Below are positions 17,758-26,425 of a stretch of 64,000 nt of DNA, piece after piece. The stretch is taken from the NCBI RefSeq assembly GCF_002795805.1, contig NZ_CP018799.1, positions 1,791,001 to 1,855,000 on the forward strand, written 5' to 3'. The stretch comes from Mariprofundus aestuarium. GTDB lineage: Bacteria; Pseudomonadota; Zetaproteobacteria; Mariprofundales; Mariprofundaceae. Every line of letters begins with the position of its first letter. Position 1 is the first letter of the stretch. A program made the position numbers and the translations under genes. The notes below the pieces were generated by a model. That model was given only the letters and a program-made list of their open reading frames with translations, was not told where the DNA came from and searched no databases.

Positions 17758-18438
17758 TTATCGTGCCAGTAACAGTTCAAGGCGGGCGCCAACGCGTTGA
17801 GCGATATCGGCTACCTCACCTACATTTTGAATCACGCGATAGAGGAACACTGCATCGATCGGATCCAGATTCTTTTCGATGACAAACAGTGCGTTATTGA
17901 TCTGGGTACCAAGCTTATCGGCACCATACTCGATATCATCGAGGTCATTGATCATCTCTTCCACCGTGTTCACTTCACGACCACGGAAACCGACCTCAAC
18001 CAGCTCATCGAGTTCATTGACAATCTTTTTGGCCTGACGGGAAGAGGCGACACTCTGTTTGACCAGCTCAACCAGCAAATCTGCAAGCTCTTCGGGAATA
18101 GCCATCTGACGACCAATCACGTAACCGGCAATCTCCTTGGATTTGTTGGCCAGTCGATCCTGATTTAATACGATATCCAGGATACGTTCGCGTGGCATCG
18201 GCATGAAAAGTGAATTTGGCAGTTGGATACGAAGCGAATGTTTCAGATCATCTGCTTCTACTTCCAGTCTGTGAATCTCCCGCTCCAAAATAGCAGCCTG
18301 CTCGTAATCTTTTGCAATCACAGCCACAAAGAATGGCTCGAGTTTTTTCACAGCTTCATGAGCCTTGCTGATATGTTCCTGCAGCGGTTTGATCGGCGAA
18401 CCGGCAAACATATTTGAAATTGGACTTCTTCTAACCAT
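17758..18438 (-). CDS. DUF47/PhoU-like Pit accessory protein (TIGR00153 family)
   Basis: A 226-residue helical PhoU-like protein of the DUF47 family that usually precedes pit genes and is thought to regulate Pit transport. It shows MFAGSPIKPLQEHISKAHEA, REIHRLEVEADDLKHSLR, LFMPMPRERILDIVLNQDRL and the C-terminal VAQRVGARLELLLAR-type helix (here IAQRVGARLELLLAR). The start at 18438 is chosen because GGGAG lies 5 bases upstream; upstream TTG and GTG codons overlap that site. A Pho-box pair sits about 67 bases upstream, making this operon a likely PhoB target. Confidence 0.9.
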   Translation of the reverse strand: MVRRSPISNMFAGSPIKPLQEHISKAHEAVKKLEPFFVAVIAKDYEQAAILEREIHRLEVEADDLKHSLRIQLPNSLFMPMPRERILDIVLNQDRLANKSKEIAGYVIGRQMAIPEELADLLVELVKQSVASSRQAKKIVNELDELVEVGFRGREVNTVEEMINDLDDIEYGADKLGTQINNALFVIEKNLDPIDAVFLYRVIQNVGEVADIAQRVGARLELLLAR

Positions 18439-18504
18439 ATTCACTCCCAATATTTAGACCCTAAGCGGCCTGTTCATTAAAACGGATACATTATATATGT
18501 CATT

Positions 18505-18642: not shown

Positions 18643-18897
18643 TCATGCCTCTGGCTTTTCTCTAATCCTGGCAAGCAGTTCAGCGCCTTTCCTGGTCTGT
18701 GATACAATAACACTTAACTCCTGCTGCAGCAGTTCGCGCTCATCATCATCTGTTTCAGAGCTAATCTCTGCCTTGAGCATTGCCTCTTTCTGCTGAAGTT
18801 TTTTGATCACCTTGCTGAGCCCCTCTTCTGACTCCTTAAGCTGACCCGCATGCGCATCAAAAAAGTTAAGTCGCTTTAGTAACTTCTTCAGTTTCAT
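18643..18897 (-). CDS. 84-aa coiled-coil protein, paralog A, partner of NptA-type cotransporter
   Basis: I do not recognise a named family. The product is a highly charged helical protein with heptad-like spacing (LKKLLKRLNFF, EEGLSKVIKKLQQKEAMLKAEIS, RELLQQELSVIVSQTRKGAELL). It is clearly paralogous to the 90-aa protein encoded at 20936-21208: both contain EEGLSKV-KKL-KKE/QKE, an acidic DDDERE/DEDVRE turn, LxQELxVxxSQxRKG and a LLxxxR end. Each lies just downstream of a Na/Pi cotransporter gene. There is no signal peptide or membrane segment. I infer a cytoplasmic coiled-coil partner of the cotransporter's PhoU-like domain; this is untested. Confidence 0.7.
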   Translation of the reverse strand: MKLKKLLKRLNFFDAHAGQLKESEEGLSKVIKKLQQKEAMLKAEISSETDDDERELLQQELSVIVSQTRKGAELLARIREKPEA

Positions 18898-18972
18898 TCC
18901 CGATTCCCCTCACCTATCATGTTACCGCATAAGAGCTCTCATCGCTGCGTACCATAGAGGCTACAACCCGAT

Positions 18973-18990
18973 TGTGACATCTATGTGTCC
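18973..18990 (-). promoter_or_regulatory. Weak Pho-box-like pair before the 84-aa gene
   Basis: TGTGACA (18973-18979) and TGTGTCC (18984-18990) are 11 bases apart. One half-site is poor. It lies 76 bases upstream of the 84-aa coiled-coil gene and could give it a separate phosphate-responsive promoter. Confidence 0.35.
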
Positions 18991-19014
18991 AAAAAGGGGG
19001 CTGATGAAACTTTA

Positions 19015-20844
19015 TCAGCGACGCTCAGCAGCCTCCCGCTCATCACTGAGTACTGAATTGATCTCCTCTCTGTTCAGGGCAATCAGATGCTCAGCCTCTG
19101 TCTCTGATCCCTCTTCAGATTTCAGGTGGTTGTGGTTAATCTGAATCAGGCTATTGATGATGCTATAGGTATAGTTACTGTCGTTCATCAGGGAGATCGC
19201 CATATCCGCTGATATGTGACCCTCACGAATCAGCTCATCCAGACGGCCATGCAGCAGACTCATGTTTTTCTCCAGCGTCAGCTTCAGGGCATCGAGTGAG
19301 AGAATAGATGTAGATGTAGCCGTAACCTCCTGACTGCGAATATTCTCCAGCCTGCGTATCACCTTGGCAATTCGCTGACGCAAACGATTGTATTCAGCAC
19401 TGATATGCGGATTTTCCGAATCGATATAGAGCAACATATTCTTCTGCAGATGTTTCACATCTTTAAGTGTGATCAGGATCGACTGATTGGCCAGGCGAAT
19501 CCGGCTGACCTGGCGTGATGTGGCCTCATCGACAGAGAGCCTGTTGGTATAATCGAGAATTGCACTGCAGAGGCTCTTGATTTCATGTTCGTAAACCTCA
19601 TCAATATCATATTCGACCGCTTTATCATGCGCCTTGATCACCTGCTTAAGTTTGGCATCGGAGAGAATATCCTGTTTATCCAGAGACAATCCTTTGGCAA
19701 TCACCCCGATCGCTTTCTCATAGATCCGCGCTGTCTCCTTGCGTAGTGCTTCAAGTGCGGTATCACCGAACTCAAGTGATGCTTCATTGAGATACATCGG
19801 TTGAGCGTGAATATCCGGCTCAGATTTAAATAGTCGAGTCACCAGCCCAATCAACGGATTGATCAGTGGCACCATAATAATCACACCGATCACATTGAAG
19901 ATGGTATGGAAAACAGCCAGTTTCATGGTGTAGTCATCATCTGCCAGGCCAATCACAGAAGAGATGCCATCAACCAGTCCCATCATCGGCTGCATAAACA
20001 GAATAAACAGGATACCCGCACACACCTTAAACAGCACATCTGCCAAAGCCAGTCGCTTGCCGACAACGTTTGATGAGAGTGCACCAAGCACCGCTGTAAT
20101 CGTCGTGCCCACATTGGCACCGATCGCCAGTGCCAGTGCATTATCATAGGTGATCTGCTGCACGGAGAGCGCGGTGATAATAAGCACCAGCGTGGCGTGA
20201 CTTGATTGCATGATGATCGTGGCAATGATACCGATCAGGGTAAAGACCAGAATACCTGCCATCCCCTCCATCGCATAAGCGGTCAGATCAAGGCTATTCT
20301 GGAACGCCTCAAAACCCTCTTTCATATGATGAATACCGAAAAACAGGAAACCAAGACCGACCAGAATGTAACCTACACCCTTCATCGACTTCGATTTCTG
20401 GAATATCAGCATCACACCGAACACCAGCATCGGCATGGCATAGGCGGATATCTTCACCTTCAAACCAAACCCGGCGATCAGCCAGGCACCTGTCGTGGTT
20501 CCCACATTGGCACCAAAGACAATTCCCAGCCCCTCAACCAGCCCGATCATCCCGACACTTAAAAATGAGATGGTGATAACAGAAACCAGCGAACTCGACT
20601 GCATCACGGTTGCCGCAGTAAAGCCGAAGGTGAGGCTTTTCCACATTTTATTGGTACTTTTTTTGAGTATCTTCTCAAGCACACCACCGGTAAATGCCCT
20701 AAACCCCTCCTCAAGCGCCAGCATGCCAAAGAGAAAGATTGCTACGCCCGCAGAGATCTCTTTAAAGTCAGGGCTGACCCAGAATCCGTAAGCCAGAATC
20801 AGCATAATCGAAGGCAGAATCACCTTTCGCAGTGTGTTTCTCAT
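19015..20844 (-). CDS. Na/Pi cotransporter family protein with C-terminal PhoU-like domain (copy 1)
   Basis: A 609-residue NptA-type (PF02690-like) phosphate:sodium symporter. The N-terminal membrane half has two inverted repeats carrying the QSS signature (MQSSSLVSVITISFL and MQSSHATLVLIITAL) with GANVGTTTGAW and GANVGTTITAVLGA. The cytoplasmic C-terminal half (about 330-609) is helical and PhoU-like (EFGDTALEALRKETARIYEKA, DVKHLQKNM). The start at 20844 has AAGGA upstream; a longer frame has none. It is a close paralog of the gene at 21221-23050. Direction of transport and regulation are inferred from the family. Confidence 0.9.
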   Translation of the reverse strand: MRNTLRKVILPSIMLILAYGFWVSPDFKEISAGVAIFLFGMLALEEGFRAFTGGVLEKILKKSTNKMWKSLTFGFTAATVMQSSSLVSVITISFLSVGMIGLVEGLGIVFGANVGTTTGAWLIAGFGLKVKISAYAMPMLVFGVMLIFQKSKSMKGVGYILVGLGFLFFGIHHMKEGFEAFQNSLDLTAYAMEGMAGILVFTLIGIIATIIMQSSHATLVLIITALSVQQITYDNALALAIGANVGTTITAVLGALSSNVVGKRLALADVLFKVCAGILFILFMQPMMGLVDGISSVIGLADDDYTMKLAVFHTIFNVIGVIIMVPLINPLIGLVTRLFKSEPDIHAQPMYLNEASLEFGDTALEALRKETARIYEKAIGVIAKGLSLDKQDILSDAKLKQVIKAHDKAVEYDIDEVYEHEIKSLCSAILDYTNRLSVDEATSRQVSRIRLANQSILITLKDVKHLQKNMLLYIDSENPHISAEYNRLRQRIAKVIRRLENIRSQEVTATSTSILSLDALKLTLEKNMSLLHGRLDELIREGHISADMAISLMNDSNYTYSIINSLIQINHNHLKSEEGSETEAEHLIALNREEINSVLSDEREAAERR

Positions 20845-20868
20845 GTTATATTCCTTATTGTTGTTTAT

Positions 20869-20900
20869 AAAAAACAGCGCCCGGGAAAACCAGGGCACTG
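20869..20900 (-). terminator. Terminator between the 90-aa gene and cotransporter copy 1
   Basis: On the minus strand CAGTGCCC / GGGCGCTG (one G-T pair) with a 10-base loop is followed by TTTTTT. It separates the 90-aa coiled-coil gene from the downstream cotransporter, which may need readthrough or its own promoter. Confidence 0.75.
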
Positions 20901-20935
20901 CGTTTGAAGCAGGGTTTTAGGGCAGTGTAAACTTT

Positions 20936-21208
20936 TTATTTACTAACTTTCTTACGCAGAGAGGAGAGCAGTGTGATGCCCTTCTTACGTTGTGAGTGGA
21001 CCACATTTAACTCCTGCTCCAGCATCTCGCGCACATCTTCATCACGCTCAGCAGCAATTAATGCCTTAAGGTGTTTCTCTTTCTTTTTAAGCTTTTTAAG
21101 CACTTTGGAGAGGCCTTCATCTTCCTGCTGCAACTGTTCAGCCTCTGCATTCATGTACGATTTAAGTTTCTTCAACAGCTTCTTTTTCAACGCATTGTCA
21201 AATTTCAT
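20936..21208 (-). CDS. 90-aa coiled-coil protein, paralog B, partner of NptA-type cotransporter
   Basis: Unnamed family. A very basic, helical 90-residue protein (FDNALKKKLLKKLKSYM, EDEGLSKVLKKLKKKEKHL, REMLEQELNVVHSQRKKGITLL). It aligns over nearly its whole length with the 84-aa protein at 18643-18897. It starts 12 bases after the stop of cotransporter copy 2, so it is almost certainly co-transcribed with it. It has no signal or membrane segment. The conserved cotransporter-plus-coiled-coil arrangement, present twice in tandem, is the main evidence that the pairing matters. Confidence 0.72.
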   Translation of the reverse strand: MKFDNALKKKLLKKLKSYMNAEAEQLQQEDEGLSKVLKKLKKKEKHLKALIAAERDEDVREMLEQELNVVHSQRKKGITLLSSLRKKVSK

Positions 21209-21220
21209 ACTAATCCCCGT

Positions 21221-23050
21221 TCACCCTTTCTCTGCAATTTCCCGATCATCTGCCAGCACAGTGCCGATCTCTTCCCGGTTCAAAGCGATCATATGTTCTG
21301 CCTCTGTCTCAGACCCCTCTTCGGATTTCAGATAGTTATGGTTAATCTGAATCAGGTTATGGATTATACTATAGGTATAATTACTGTCATTCATCAACGA
21401 TATCGCCATCTCTGCTGAGACTTTGCCATCACGAATCAATTCATTCATACGCTCATGCAACAGGCCCATATTTTTCTCCAGCGTCAGCTTCAGCGCATCC
21501 AGCGAAAGAATGGATGTCGCACTCGTCTCACCACTGGCACGAATCTTCTCCAGTCGGCGCATCACCTTGGCGATACGTTGACGCAGTCGGTTATATTCAC
21601 CACTGATCTCCGGATTATCCGAAGCGATATAGCGCTGCATATTCTTCTGCAGATGTTTTACATCTTTGAGTGCGATCAGGATTGACTGATTAGCCATACG
21701 GATTCGACTAATCTGTCTGGCAATGACTGGGTCAGCAGAGGATAATTTATTGGTGTAATCCAGAATCGCACTGCACAGACGTTTGATCTCATGTTCATAG
21801 ACATCATCTATATCATAATCAATCGCACGAGCATGCTCCGCAATCACCTGTTTGAGTTTAGCATCAGAGAAAATCTTCCTCTTATCCAGAGAGAGTCCTT
21901 TTGCGATAACATCGGTTGCTTTACCGTAAACACGTGCAGTCTCCATACGCAGTGCTTCAAGTGCGGCATCACCAAACTCTAACGCTGATTCATTCAGGTA
22001 TTTCGGCTGCGCATATTTATCCGGCTCCGACTTGATCACCCTCTCCAGAAAACGTACCAGATGATTGGTAAATGGAATCATCACCACAATGCCGATCAGA
22101 TTAAACAGAGTGTGGAATACCGCCAGCTTCAATGTGTAGTCTGCTTCAGCAATACCGACGTAGGAGCTGATCAGATCCACAGCCACCAGCAGTTGATGAA
22201 TAAAGGCGATCGCAATCAGACCGGTAATCACATTGAAAATTAGATGTGCGCCTGCCAACCGTTTACCCAACTCATTGGAGCTCAGTGCCCCAAGGATAGC
22301 TGTAATCGTTGTGCCCACATTGGCACCGATAGCCAGCGCCAGAGCATTTTCATAAGAGATCTGCTGAGCAGCCAGTGCGGTAATAATCAGAACCAGTGTG
22401 GCGTGACTCGATTGCATCACCACCGTGGCAAAAATGCCTATCAGGGTAAACAGGAAGAGTCCGGGATATCCGGCCACCGCATATTCAGCCAGATCAATCG
22501 CCGATTTGAAGGTCTCAAAACCCTCCTTCATATGGTGGATACCCAGAAAAAGGAACCCGAGGCCAGTAAGGATATAACCGATGCCTTTAAGGTGACGTGA
22601 CTTCTGGAATATCATAATCACGCCAAATACCAGCATCGGCATCGCATAAGCTGAGATCTTCACCTTCAGACCGAAACCGGCCACCAGCCATGCTCCAGTT
22701 GTCGTGCCAAGGTTGGCACCAAAGATGATGCCGATACCCTGAGAAAGGCCAATCAACCCTGCGCCCAGGAATGATATGGTAATGACCGAAACCAGCGAAC
22801 TGGACTGCATGATACTCGTTGAAACAACACCGAAAGAGATGCTCTTCCATAATTTATTCGTGGTTTTTTTCAGGATTTTCTCAAGTGTTCCACCGGTAAA
22901 GGCTTTAAAGCCCTCCTCCAGCGCCAGCATGCCGAACAGGAATATCGCTACGCCGGCAGCAATCTCCTTAAAATCCGGACTGATCCAGAAACCGTAGGCC
23001 AGAATCACCAGAATGGTTGGTAACATTACTTTTTGAAGGGTGCCTTTCAC
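21221..23050 (-). CDS. Na/Pi cotransporter family protein with C-terminal PhoU-like domain (copy 2)
   Basis: A 609-residue paralog of the cotransporter at 19015, the same length and collinear throughout. The start is GTG at 23050 with AAAGGA upstream. It has QSS repeats (MQSSSLVSVITISFLGAGL and MQSSHATLVLIITALAAQQ), GANLGTTTGAW and GANVGTTITAILGA. The C-terminal PhoU-like region holds LEFGDAALEALRMETARVYG and ends in ALNREEIGTVLADDREIAE. It is predicted to be a sodium-coupled phosphate transporter of the inner membrane. The leader is unusual, with a 10-base-arm hairpin and a GCGCTG-T9 element. It lies downstream of the first PPK2 gene on the same strand. Confidence 0.9.
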   Translation of the reverse strand: MKGTLQKVMLPTILVILAYGFWISPDFKEIAAGVAIFLFGMLALEEGFKAFTGGTLEKILKKTTNKLWKSISFGVVSTSIMQSSSLVSVITISFLGAGLIGLSQGIGIIFGANLGTTTGAWLVAGFGLKVKISAYAMPMLVFGVIMIFQKSRHLKGIGYILTGLGFLFLGIHHMKEGFETFKSAIDLAEYAVAGYPGLFLFTLIGIFATVVMQSSHATLVLIITALAAQQISYENALALAIGANVGTTITAILGALSSNELGKRLAGAHLIFNVITGLIAIAFIHQLLVAVDLISSYVGIAEADYTLKLAVFHTLFNLIGIVVMIPFTNHLVRFLERVIKSEPDKYAQPKYLNESALEFGDAALEALRMETARVYGKATDVIAKGLSLDKRKIFSDAKLKQVIAEHARAIDYDIDDVYEHEIKRLCSAILDYTNKLSSADPVIARQISRIRMANQSILIALKDVKHLQKNMQRYIASDNPEISGEYNRLRQRIAKVMRRLEKIRASGETSATSILSLDALKLTLEKNMGLLHERMNELIRDGKVSAEMAISLMNDSNYTYSIIHNLIQINHNYLKSEEGSETEAEHMIALNREEIGTVLADDREIAEKG

Positions 23051-23164: not shown

Positions 23165-24076
23165 TCAGCCGATAAATTTACCACTTCTCAGGCGCTGCTT
23201 ATTCATCAGCTCAATCTCTCTGGCACCGGAGATCACCACCTTGTCATCAGGTACAAAATCCAGTGCCTCGTTATAACCCTCATAATCCACCGCATTGAGG
23301 ATGGTTTTAATGGCATTAAGTCTGCATTTGTGTTTGTCCATCGAACGAATCACTGTCCATGGCGCTGCTGCGGTATGGGTGCGTTTAAGCATCTCATATT
23401 TTGTCTTGGTGAAGTCGTCCCAGCGCTCTTGCGCCTGCATATCCACCTCAGAGAGCTTCCACTGCCTCAGCGGATCCGTGGTACGCCGGTCAAAGCGGGC
23501 CTTCTGGGCATCCTTGGTAACGCTGAAGTAGAGTTTCACCAGTATGGTTCCCTGACGGATAAGATCCTTCTCAAAGCCGACCACACCTTTCATAAAGTTT
23601 TTATATTCGCTTTCACTGCAAAAACCGAAAACCGGCTCCACCATCGCCCGGTTGTACCAGCTGCGATCAAACAGCACGACCTCGCCACCATGTGGAAACT
23701 GGGATACATATTTCTGGAAAAACCACTGACTGCGCTGCTCTTCGGTCGGTTTGCCCATGGCAATAATACGGTAATGTTTCTCATTCATGTAACGGGTTAC
23801 ACGGCGAATGGTGCCACCTTTGGCTGCAGCGTCGCGTCCTTCAAAAAGGATAACCATGCGCTGCTGTGTTCTATCCAGATGCTGTTGCAGCTTGATCAAC
23901 TCGGCCTGATAGGGTTTGAGCTCTTTTTCCTGCAAATATTTGGTGATGATGCTTTCTACTTTGTTGTCGCTTAGTCCATGCTCTTCTATGAGTTGTTCAT
24001 AGCAGGGAGGATTTTCTTGCGGCATGACCTCCGGGCCCTCATCCAGGGTAACCTCAGGGTTTGCCAACAGATTCAT
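23165..24076 (-). CDS. PPK2-family polyphosphate kinase, paralog A (altered P-loop)
   Basis: A 303-residue PPK2. Family enzymes transfer phosphate between polyphosphate and nucleotides. Conserved blocks are ILFEGRDAAAKGGTIRRVTR, GKPTEEQRSQWFFQKYVSQF, DRSWYNRAMVEPVFGFC (Walker B), a lid region with RFDRRTTDPLRQWKLSEVD, and TPWTVIRS-like APWTVIRSMDKHKCRLNA. Oddity: the Walker A loop reads GRDAAAKGG, with Ala in place of the Gly before the catalytic Lys that both sister copies keep (GRDAAGKGG). The start at 24076 has AGGAGAAG upstream. It is first in a four-gene minus-strand run with the Na/Pi genes. Activity of this copy is uncertain. Confidence 0.88.
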   Translation of the reverse strand: MNLLANPEVTLDEGPEVMPQENPPCYEQLIEEHGLSDNKVESIITKYLQEKELKPYQAELIKLQQHLDRTQQRMVILFEGRDAAAKGGTIRRVTRYMNEKHYRIIAMGKPTEEQRSQWFFQKYVSQFPHGGEVVLFDRSWYNRAMVEPVFGFCSESEYKNFMKGVVGFEKDLIRQGTILVKLYFSVTKDAQKARFDRRTTDPLRQWKLSEVDMQAQERWDDFTKTKYEMLKRTHTAAAPWTVIRSMDKHKCRLNAIKTILNAVDYEGYNEALDFVPDDKVVISGAREIELMNKQRLRSGKFIG

Positions 24077-24214
24077 CTCTTTCTTCTCCTTATAGTTTCG
24101 CTATATCCCCCCTGGCACTCCAAATCACCAAAAGGACATGGCATTATACATAAAAGTAGCCCTTTTGAAATATTGAAGTAACTGATGCAACTATTTAATG
24201 CAGATGAAAGGGGC

Positions 24215-24238
24215 AAAAAAAGGGCGGTAAAACCGCCC
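24215..24238 (-). terminator. Terminator of PPK2 paralog B
   Basis: On the minus strand GGGCGGT-TTT-ACCGCCC is followed by TTTTTTT, 9 bases after the ppk2 stop. Confidence 0.9.
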
Positions 24239-24246
24239 TCTTCTCT

Positions 24247-25194
24247 TTATTCTGACTGATCCTCTTGCGGCAGATCATCCGCCACTTTTTTTCTACTCTT
24301 GTTGCGCAGGCGATCCCTCTGCATCAGTTCAATCTCACGTGCCCCTGAGATCACAACATTGTCGTCAGGCACATAATCAAGTTCCATGTTCACTTTGTCA
24401 TAATCGACAGAATTGAGGATCACCTTGATCGCATTCAGACGTGCCCGATGTTTGTCCATTGAGCGAATCACCGTCCACGGTGCGGATGCGGTATGGGTGC
24501 GGCGCAGCATCTCATATTTAACCTTATCGAAATCGTCCCAGCGCTCCTGCGCCTGCACATCCACTTCAGAGAGCTTCCACTGACGCAGTGGATCATCCTT
24601 ACGACGATCAAAACGTTTCTGTTGCACATCCTTGGTCACACTGAAGTAGATCTTCACCAGAATGGTACCCTGACGCACCAGATCCTTCTCGAAACCGCCA
24701 ACACCCTTCATGAAATTTTTATACTCGGCATCGGAACAGAAGCCGAATACCGGCTCCACCATCGCACGGTTGTACCAGCTGCGATCAAACATGGCGATCT
24801 CACCACCATGCGGAAACTGGGATACATACTTCTGGAAAAACCACTGTGTGCGTTGTTCTTCGGTTGGCTTGCCCAATGCAATAATACGATAGTGCTTCTC
24901 ATTCATGTAACGGGTCACACGACGGATAGTGCCGCCCTTACCTGCAGCATCCCTGCCCTCAAAAAGAATAATCATGCGCTGATTGGTTTTTTCCAGATGC
25001 TTCTGCAGATTGATCAGCTCCGCCTGAAACGGCTTAAGCTCCTGCTCCTGCAGGTATTTGGTGAGAACCTTCTTCACCTTCTCTTCAGTCAGTCCATGCT
25101 TTTCAACCAACCGATCATAACATTTGGCCTGCCCGCCTGAGCCCTCGGCTTCATCTGCTTTAGGGGTGGAATCACTGTTAACCAAGGTACTCAT
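24247..25194 (-). CDS. PPK2-family polyphosphate kinase, paralog B
   Basis: A 315-residue PPK2 with intact Walker A (EGRDAAGKGGTIRR), Walker B (FDRSWYNRAMVEPVFG), lid segment (RFDRRKDDPLRQWKLSEVDV) and C-terminal VVISGAREIELMQR. The start at 25194 is preferred, since GGAG lies 6 bases upstream; the TTG at 25206 overlaps that site. Compared with the copies on either side it has a longer Gly/Glu-rich N terminus (about residues 9-24) and a basic tail (RLRNKSRKKVADD). It has its own terminator, so it is probably transcribed separately from paralog A. Whether it makes nucleotides from polyphosphate or the reverse cannot be told from the sequence. Confidence 0.9.
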   Translation of the reverse strand: MSTLVNSDSTPKADEAEGSGGQAKCYDRLVEKHGLTEEKVKKVLTKYLQEQELKPFQAELINLQKHLEKTNQRMIILFEGRDAAGKGGTIRRVTRYMNEKHYRIIALGKPTEEQRTQWFFQKYVSQFPHGGEIAMFDRSWYNRAMVEPVFGFCSDAEYKNFMKGVGGFEKDLVRQGTILVKIYFSVTKDVQQKRFDRRKDDPLRQWKLSEVDVQAQERWDDFDKVKYEMLRRTHTASAPWTVIRSMDKHRARLNAIKVILNSVDYDKVNMELDYVPDDNVVISGAREIELMQRDRLRNKSRKKVADDLPQEDQSE

Positions 25195-25336
25195 TGTATT
25201 CTCCAAGGATTGTATTACTCATGCAGAGAGGTTTCGCAAGAGGGGTAGCATTATACACACCCTGAACAAATCTTGAAGTCTAAGATTGTAGTAAGGCAGT
25301 TTTTTACAACAGCAAACGTAAACCGTTTCAAACAGA

Positions 25337-25360
25337 CAAGGGGCGGAAAACCGCCCCTTG
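25337..25360 (-). terminator. Hairpin terminator of PPK2 paralog C
   Basis: Perfect 10-base arms CAAGGGGCGG / CCGCCCCTTG around AAAA, 23 bases past the stop of paralog C on the minus strand. The following sequence is only moderately T-rich (TCTGTTTG). Confidence 0.65.
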
Positions 25361-25382
25361 CTTATCAATATAGCCAGTCAGA

Positions 25383-26282
25383 TCACTCTCTGTTTTTGCC
25401 CTTATTGCTCAACTTCGCCTTCTGCATCAGTTCAAGCTCACGGGCACCGGAAATGACAACGCTGTCATCCGGGACAAAATCGAGTTCCTGATTGTTGCCA
25501 TCATAGTCCACCGCATTGAGAATGACCTTGATCGCGTTAAGGCGAGCCAGGTGTTTATCGGCGGAACGGATTAGCGTCCATGGTGCAGCTGCGGTGTGGG
25601 TATGTTTGAGCATCTCATATTTAACCTTATCGAAATCGTCCCAGCGCTCCTGCGCCTGCACATCCACTTCAGAGAGCTTCCACTGGCGCAAAGGGTCATT
25701 CTGACGGCGCTCGAAGCGTTTTTTCTGGATTTCCTTGGTCACACTGAAGTAGATCTTCACCAGGATGGTTCCCTGACGCACAAGATCCTTCTCAAAGCCG
25801 ACCACCCCCTTCATGAAGTTGTTATACTCCTCATCCGTACAGAAGCCGAACACCGGCTCCACCATCGCACGGTTGTACCAGCTGCGATCAAACATCACGA
25901 TCTCGCCACCACGAGGAAACTGGGATACGTACTTCTGGAAAAACCACTGCGTGCGCTGCTCTTCGGTCGGCTTGCCCAGCGCAATGACACGGTAGTGTTT
26001 CTCGTTCATATAACGCGTCACACTGCGAATGGTACCACCCTTGCCCGCCGCATCTCTGCCTTCAAAGAGGATGATCATCCGCTGCTTGGTCGCTTCAAGG
26101 TGCTGCTGAAGATTAATCAATTCGGCCTGAAACGGCTTGAGTTCCTGCTCCTGCAGGTAGGAGGTGATGATTTTCTCAACCTTGCTATCGTCAAAGCCAT
26201 GTTTATCGATCAATGCATCGTAAGAGCGTTCCTGTGACGCTTCTACCTGCTGATCTCCACTATTTGCCAGTGCATCCATCAT
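25383..26282 (-). CDS. PPK2-family polyphosphate kinase, paralog C
   Basis: A 299-residue PPK2 starting at ATG 26282 (GGGAG 5 bases upstream; the second ATG follows immediately). Walker A EGRDAAGKGGTIRSVTR and Walker B FDRSWYNRAMVEPVFGFC are intact, and the lid reads RFERRQNDPLRQWKLSEVDV. It is close to paralogs A and B across the entire catalytic core, with variation mainly in the first 40 residues. Three tandem, individually terminated copies suggest separate regulation or substrate preference. It is divergent from ppx with about 143 bases between, in which I see no Pho box. Confidence 0.9.
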   Translation of the reverse strand: MMDALANSGDQQVEASQERSYDALIDKHGFDDSKVEKIITSYLQEQELKPFQAELINLQQHLEATKQRMIILFEGRDAAGKGGTIRSVTRYMNEKHYRVIALGKPTEEQRTQWFFQKYVSQFPRGGEIVMFDRSWYNRAMVEPVFGFCTDEEYNNFMKGVVGFEKDLVRQGTILVKIYFSVTKEIQKKRFERRQNDPLRQWKLSEVDVQAQERWDDFDKVKYEMLKHTHTAAAPWTLIRSADKHLARLNAIKVILNAVDYDGNNQELDFVPDDSVVISGARELELMQKAKLSNKGKNRE

Positions 26283-26425
26283 GCATACTCCCTGAATATA
26301 GTATCGCCCCGCCAATGTGCAGAGGACGAACTATTCTACATTGCAAATCCGGAATATATACAGCGCTATATGAAGTGTGCTGAAATTAGATAGCGATTTT
26401 CAAATCATCACGGCAGCATAAGCAG

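Follow-up and report, generated by a model that had tools for sequence, protein, structure and literature searches.

The 64,000-nucleotide window analysed here (contig NZ_CP018799.1, positions 1,791,001 to 1,855,000) lies in the 2.54 Mb, single-contig genome of Mariprofundus aestuarium, which belongs to a genus of marine iron oxidisers. Between positions 18643 and 23050 of the window the minus strand carries, in this order, transporter A, small gene A, transporter B and small gene B, and all four genes were confirmed. Transporter A (21221..23050) starts at GTG and comprises 609 residues; it is followed after 12 base pairs (bp) by small gene A (20936..21208), which encodes a predicted helical-hairpin protein of 90 residues. 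Transporter B (19015..20844) also has 609 residues when counted from ATG, or 627 from an upstream GTG start, and is separated by 117 bp from small gene B (18643..18897), the predicted hairpin product of which has 84 residues. The transporters are 72% identical across the 609 residues compared, while the small proteins, both of family A1, share 52% identity in an alignment of 71 residues (E 2e-13). The locus is therefore as described in an earlier note on this DNA, which had pointed to two 609-residue cotransporters, each followed by one of two paralogous small proteins.

Both transporters match PF02690 in two stretches (164.8 and 150.7 bits against a cut-off of 29.1; 1.5e-48 and 3.3e-44, respectively) and also the Na/Pi symporter (Pi, inorganic phosphate) model NF037997 (162.9 and 153.4 bits against a cut-off of 50). 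By these curated cut-offs both are NptA-type Na/Pi cotransporters. A sequence search of the PDB with the transporter returned SLC34A2 as the sole meaningful match. AlphaFold2 predicts six long helices after the membrane part, and the window transporters share their overall layout, including a predicted C-terminal helical domain, with NptA of Staphylococcus aureus, as described in the main text of the report on that protein (PMC13170248). There the domain is PhoU-like and regulates Pi homeostasis, and removing it altered both Pho signalling and growth at high Pi (PMC13170248). Such a domain is absent from some members of the NptA-type family. The label ‘PhoU-like' used here derives from that literature together with the six-helix prediction; PhoU was outside the 25 Pfam families best matched by the domain, and in the hhalign comparison with PhoU and PitR the positive control (PhoU against PitR) itself failed. 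A third Na/Pi paralogue (L007), located at 1.538 Mb in the genome and ∼37% identical, lacks a small partner.

The small genes are real genes, as the ratio of non-synonymous to synonymous substitutions (dN/dS) is 0.08-0.19 for small gene A against orthologues in three related genomes, and 0.23-0.31 for small gene B against two. Lysine makes up 26% of the small family at the median, and the median net charge is +17. In small protein B most of this positive charge is gone, leaving the protein near neutral, which suggests that the B pair may have diverged in role. The A protein contains a QRKKG motif (residues 73-77; 20978..20992), in which K76 is invariant in A1, and comparison of the two copies within that family identifies QTRKG (residues 67-71; 18685..18699) in the B protein. 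In Pfam and NCBIfam the two small proteins (P0001 and P0002) had no match near a curated cut-off, 53 family members gave scattered weak matches, none of them convincing, and a PDB sequence search with the small protein matched nothing. The proteins lack PhoU-type sequence and six-helix size, being predicted two-helix hairpins of ∼73-95 residues for which Pfam lists no PhoU match. They also do not qualify as YscE-type co-chaperones of type III secretion: TIGR02501 is matched weakly by three of the 53 members (best E 2e-4) and not by P0002, with P0001 unlisted, and the window neighbours of the small genes are phosphate genes rather than the type III secretion genes expected of that family. No description of the small hairpin protein was found in the main texts of the open-access literature.

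The DNA repeats of the two units, spaced by ∼2206 bp, are 74-82% identical, indicating that the duplication is old. Orthologues of both A and B, each with its own small gene, occur in Mariprofundus sp. KV and in two further genomes (G001 and G008), and thus the duplication predates several species. These orthologues cluster by copy, in the transporters and the small proteins alike, which shows that a single duplication of the complete pair preceded the split of these species and that both pairs were retained. A recent duplication or repeat artefact is ruled out by the divergence of the transporters and by the fact that other species carry orthologues of A as well as of B.

The association of the two genes extends well beyond this locus. 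A profile of the small family was applied beside the 80 best homologues of transporter A in the GTDB collection, at 76 of which the neighbour was visible and the locus testable. The small gene is adjacent in 69 of the 76: directly downstream in 67 (median gap 16 bp, many overlapping), upstream in one and fused to the transporter gene in one. The hosts include Zeta-, Gamma- and Alphaproteobacteria, in addition to metagenome-assembled genomes labelled Campylobacterales, Verrucomicrobia and others. At the seven loci without an adjacent small gene, three genomes (L050, L061 and L033) hold a family member elsewhere, and L062 and L061 derive from a single assembly; in the genomes of L015, L017 and L088 no small-family member was found. 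The fusion occurs in Mariprofundus OFTM252 (L013:6001-8097), a metagenome assembly, where transporter and small protein form one frame of 698 residues on a single contig; the junction is free of stop codons, and the small part lacks a start codon. These data support the view, advanced in the earlier note from the duplication of the pair, that transporter and small protein are functional partners; the neighbourhood survey that it had called for did not reveal absence of the small gene beside homologues elsewhere. It is conceivable that the small gene is merely co-transcribed with the transporter, the two products making no direct contact, although the fusion protein, the immediate adjacency conserved across distant groups and the joint loss of the small gene with a part of the transporter (see below) make this very improbable.

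The part in question is the C-terminal tail. Partner-bearing transporters end, after the helical domain, in an acidic motif, AE[RH]x[IL][AS]L[DN]x[DE]E[ILM]xx[VIL][LM], with a median net charge of −7 and one leucine that is invariant across 48 rows. In transporter A the motif, the proposed docking site, is EAEHMIALNREEIGTVL (residues 583-599; 21254..21304), and conservation among partner-bearing transporters identifies EAEHLIALNREEINSVL (19048..19098) as its counterpart in transporter B. When each tail was scored, at a threshold of 5 bits, with a profile derived from rows less than 75% identical to that tail, the motif was present in 86 of the 87 rows that have a partner next to them and absent from 9 of 13 without one (Fisher 4e-9, kinship uncorrected). 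The four tail-bearing rows without an adjacent partner are L050 and L061, L062 and L088. Conversely, no partner was found anywhere in the genomes of the tail-less transporters L015, L016 and L017, or in those of L190 and L191, and the second transporter of OFTM252 (L140) has neither tail nor partner. In a phylogeny from which the tail columns were excluded, changes in the tail coincide with changes in the partner, mostly at 4 of 4 (three clades within the family and the outgroup boundary). The motif is thus conserved with the partner and was lost with it at least three times, the joint losses inside the family being those of a Mariprofundus clade, L190 and L191. This clade comprises eight rows (M. 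micogutta and others; L015 5980-7791) and retains the same phosphate island as the window, tail and partner both being lost.

The joint losses bear on the nature of the partnership. The hairpin could be an assembly or stability factor that shields the PhoU-like domain, helps it to fold or brings transporters together as dimers, with no switching function. The constancy of the pairing, docking that depends on the tail, and the natural fusion would fit such a role equally well, and small helical hairpins such as YscE-type co-chaperones, to which the weak TIGR02501 matches noted above relate, act in this way. The Mariprofundus clade and the two other lineages, however, keep a full-length transporter, including the domain, without tail or partner, which argues that neither is needed for folding in general. 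The altered growth and Pho signalling that follow deletion of the PhoU domain of S. aureus NptA, as given in the main text of that report (PMC13170248), make regulation likelier than a purely structural role; we regard the assembly or stability function as the less likely reading, though a serious alternative.

Structure prediction and covariation indicate that the hairpin probably docks on the tail. The L013 fusion was modelled with AlphaFold2 on an alignment (A3) that includes neighbouring gene pairs, each read in one frame through the stop; it was used in place of an alignment (A2) that combined the transporters and the fusion with unpaired small proteins and misplaced the small rows. In the model (mean predicted local distance difference test score, pLDDT, 82.8; predicted template modelling score, pTM, 0.68) the small part is a helical hairpin, with helices at 619-661 and 665-697 and pLDDT mostly 78-89, while the tail forms two short helices. 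In a control, the fusion cut at residue 608 and modelled on transporter-only rows (A4), pTM was 0.54. The tail blocks 581-590 and 591-600, which score 77 and 75 with the hairpin, score 56 and 64 without it, and nearly all other blocks shift by ≤8. In the model the hairpin therefore orders the tail, which provides support for docking, although not proof, and answers only indirectly the earlier note's call for a predicted complex with the C-terminal domain. A Foldseek search of the PDB with the whole fusion model returned no match under 0.001. Covariation was explored in 85 pairs (effective number of sequences 47), a sample in which the whole-domain signal is noisy. The top covarying pair between domain and hairpin consists of tail residue A589 and the Q of QRxKKG. 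All five pairs with K at the hairpin site, which fall in two separate clades (L060/L067 and L068/L069/L072), have E at 589, and two further rows combine E at 589 with Q at the hairpin site. The change from A/Q to E/K is suggestive of charge compensation, and only suggestive because the pair was chosen among thousands and the excess of tail covariation is borderline. The earlier note had suggested that the small protein could bind the PhoU-like C-terminal domain; conservation and co-loss of tail and partner point more precisely to the conserved acidic tail that follows the domain.

We propose, with a probability of roughly 0.6, that each small protein serves the transporter encoded beside it as a dedicated accessory subunit, binding the transporter's tail and tuning transport or the phosphate signal. 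The small protein would fold as an antiparallel, usually basic, two-helix hairpin and dock on the short, acidic and amphipathic tail after the PhoU-like cytoplasmic domain, with its QRxKKG region near the middle of the tail motif. The tail, when held by the hairpin, would set the state of the PhoU-like domain, from which we infer an effect on transport rate or on phosphate signalling. The outcome would be Pi uptake matched to storage at a locus surrounded by genes that, by recognition, we take to be a phosphate and polyphosphate island encoding PstA, PstB, PhoU, Pit, PitR, PPK1, PPX and three PPK2 paralogues. The three PPK2-type polyphosphate kinase genes form a tandem array on the minus strand (23165-26315) immediately upstream of the two transporter pairs, and relatives carry one to three copies.

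Several observations weigh against this proposal. L088 keeps a degenerate tail with no partner in its genome, and L196 has a weak partner match and no tail. The paired phylogenetic sign test gives p 0.125, the events being too few for significance; the overall excess of tail covariation has p 0.06; and the fusion and control AlphaFold2 runs differ in row set (A3 and A4, respectively). As small protein B is near neutral, electrostatics cannot be the whole basis of pairing. Finally, a second NptA subfamily has the small gene without the tail, and other members of the small family are linked to pst genes without such a transporter; tail docking is thus probably one of several binding modes in the family.

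The wider distribution of the small family is as follows. The 399 genomes of the phylum yielded 31 matches, 25 beside or within an NptA-type gene, five beside pst or phoU genes and one beside neither; widening of the survey by the class of G045 and G054 covered one class of 48 genomes. The pst-linked members are located by pstS in G054 and G064, and in G057 two tandem copies lie by pstS and one behind pstB-phoU, the PhoU behind pstB being verified by Pfam. These pst-linked members belong to Magnetococcia-type genomes (L157 4718-6139; L173; L177; L185). The G060 member (L176 1465-1758) has a response-regulator gene on one side and a polysaccharide-export-like gene on the other, with no phosphate gene beside it. 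In the second NptA subfamily, ∼30% identical, the small-family gene is adjacent, downstream or upstream, and the tail motif is absent (L046 96-2192; L061 11198-13291; L141 4477-6696; L142). It is possible, and we suggest it tentatively at somewhat less than even odds, that the hairpins serve phosphate homeostasis in general, as accessory proteins with no sequence relationship to PhoU or PitR that plug into PhoU-like regulators. One NptA subfamily would offer the tail motif for this purpose, whereas the second subfamily and the pst/phoU operons of Magnetococcia-type genomes would use different modes of contact. The hairpin might instead use its lysines to bind or sense a ligand, for example polyphosphate or a nucleotide, and report it to PhoU-like proteins in general, in NptA and Pst systems alike. 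The lysine content and charge of the family, its pst/phoU-linked members in Magnetococcia-type genomes, the polyphosphate kinase genes near several loci and the polyphosphate bodies of M. ferrooxydans (PMC3179512) are in keeping with such a sensor. The near neutrality of small protein B, the lack of an identified ligand-binding site and the possibility that the basic charge simply matches the acidic tail render it improbable.

A precedent is GlnK/PII, which is small and soluble, pairs with the transporter AmtB and gates it. PII, however, is a trimeric α/β protein that plugs the pore, unlike the hairpin family in sequence and fold. PitR (DUF47), present in the window (17758-18450), is likewise a dedicated accessory encoded beside one Pi transporter family, Pit, although it is a PhoU relative of ∼230 residues, compared with ∼73-95 for the hairpins, and shows no relation to them that an insensitive profile comparison could detect. 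SCO1846, beside pitA, is also small, uncharacterised and linked to the gene of a Pi transporter, but the main text describing it presents a membrane protein beside Pit, whereas the hairpin family is soluble-looking, helical and beside NptA (PMC13170248). A separate small subunit of S. aureus NptA is not described in the same main text, in contrast to the one proposed here. That work, published in 2026, surveyed 926 genomes and distinguished three clades of phosphate accessory proteins, and its main text does not report the hairpin protein (PMC13170248). Accessory proteins that serve a single family of Pi transporters are a known kind, exemplified by PhoU, PitR, the NptA PhoU domain and SCO1846, none of which the hairpin matched in the comparisons made, that with PhoU and PitR being insensitive. 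New are the conserved acidic tail that accompanies the partner, the joint loss of the two, the ordering of the tail by the hairpin in the model and the putative charge-compensating pair. PhoU-like regulators are widespread, and how phosphate is sensed and the signal transferred to transporters is an open question in the field. A small partner that has a candidate docking motif, is naturally present in some members of a genus and absent from others, and is once fused to the transporter would provide a handle on how the PhoU-like domain of NptA works, for which the tail-less, partner-less Mariprofundus clade offers a natural comparison set.
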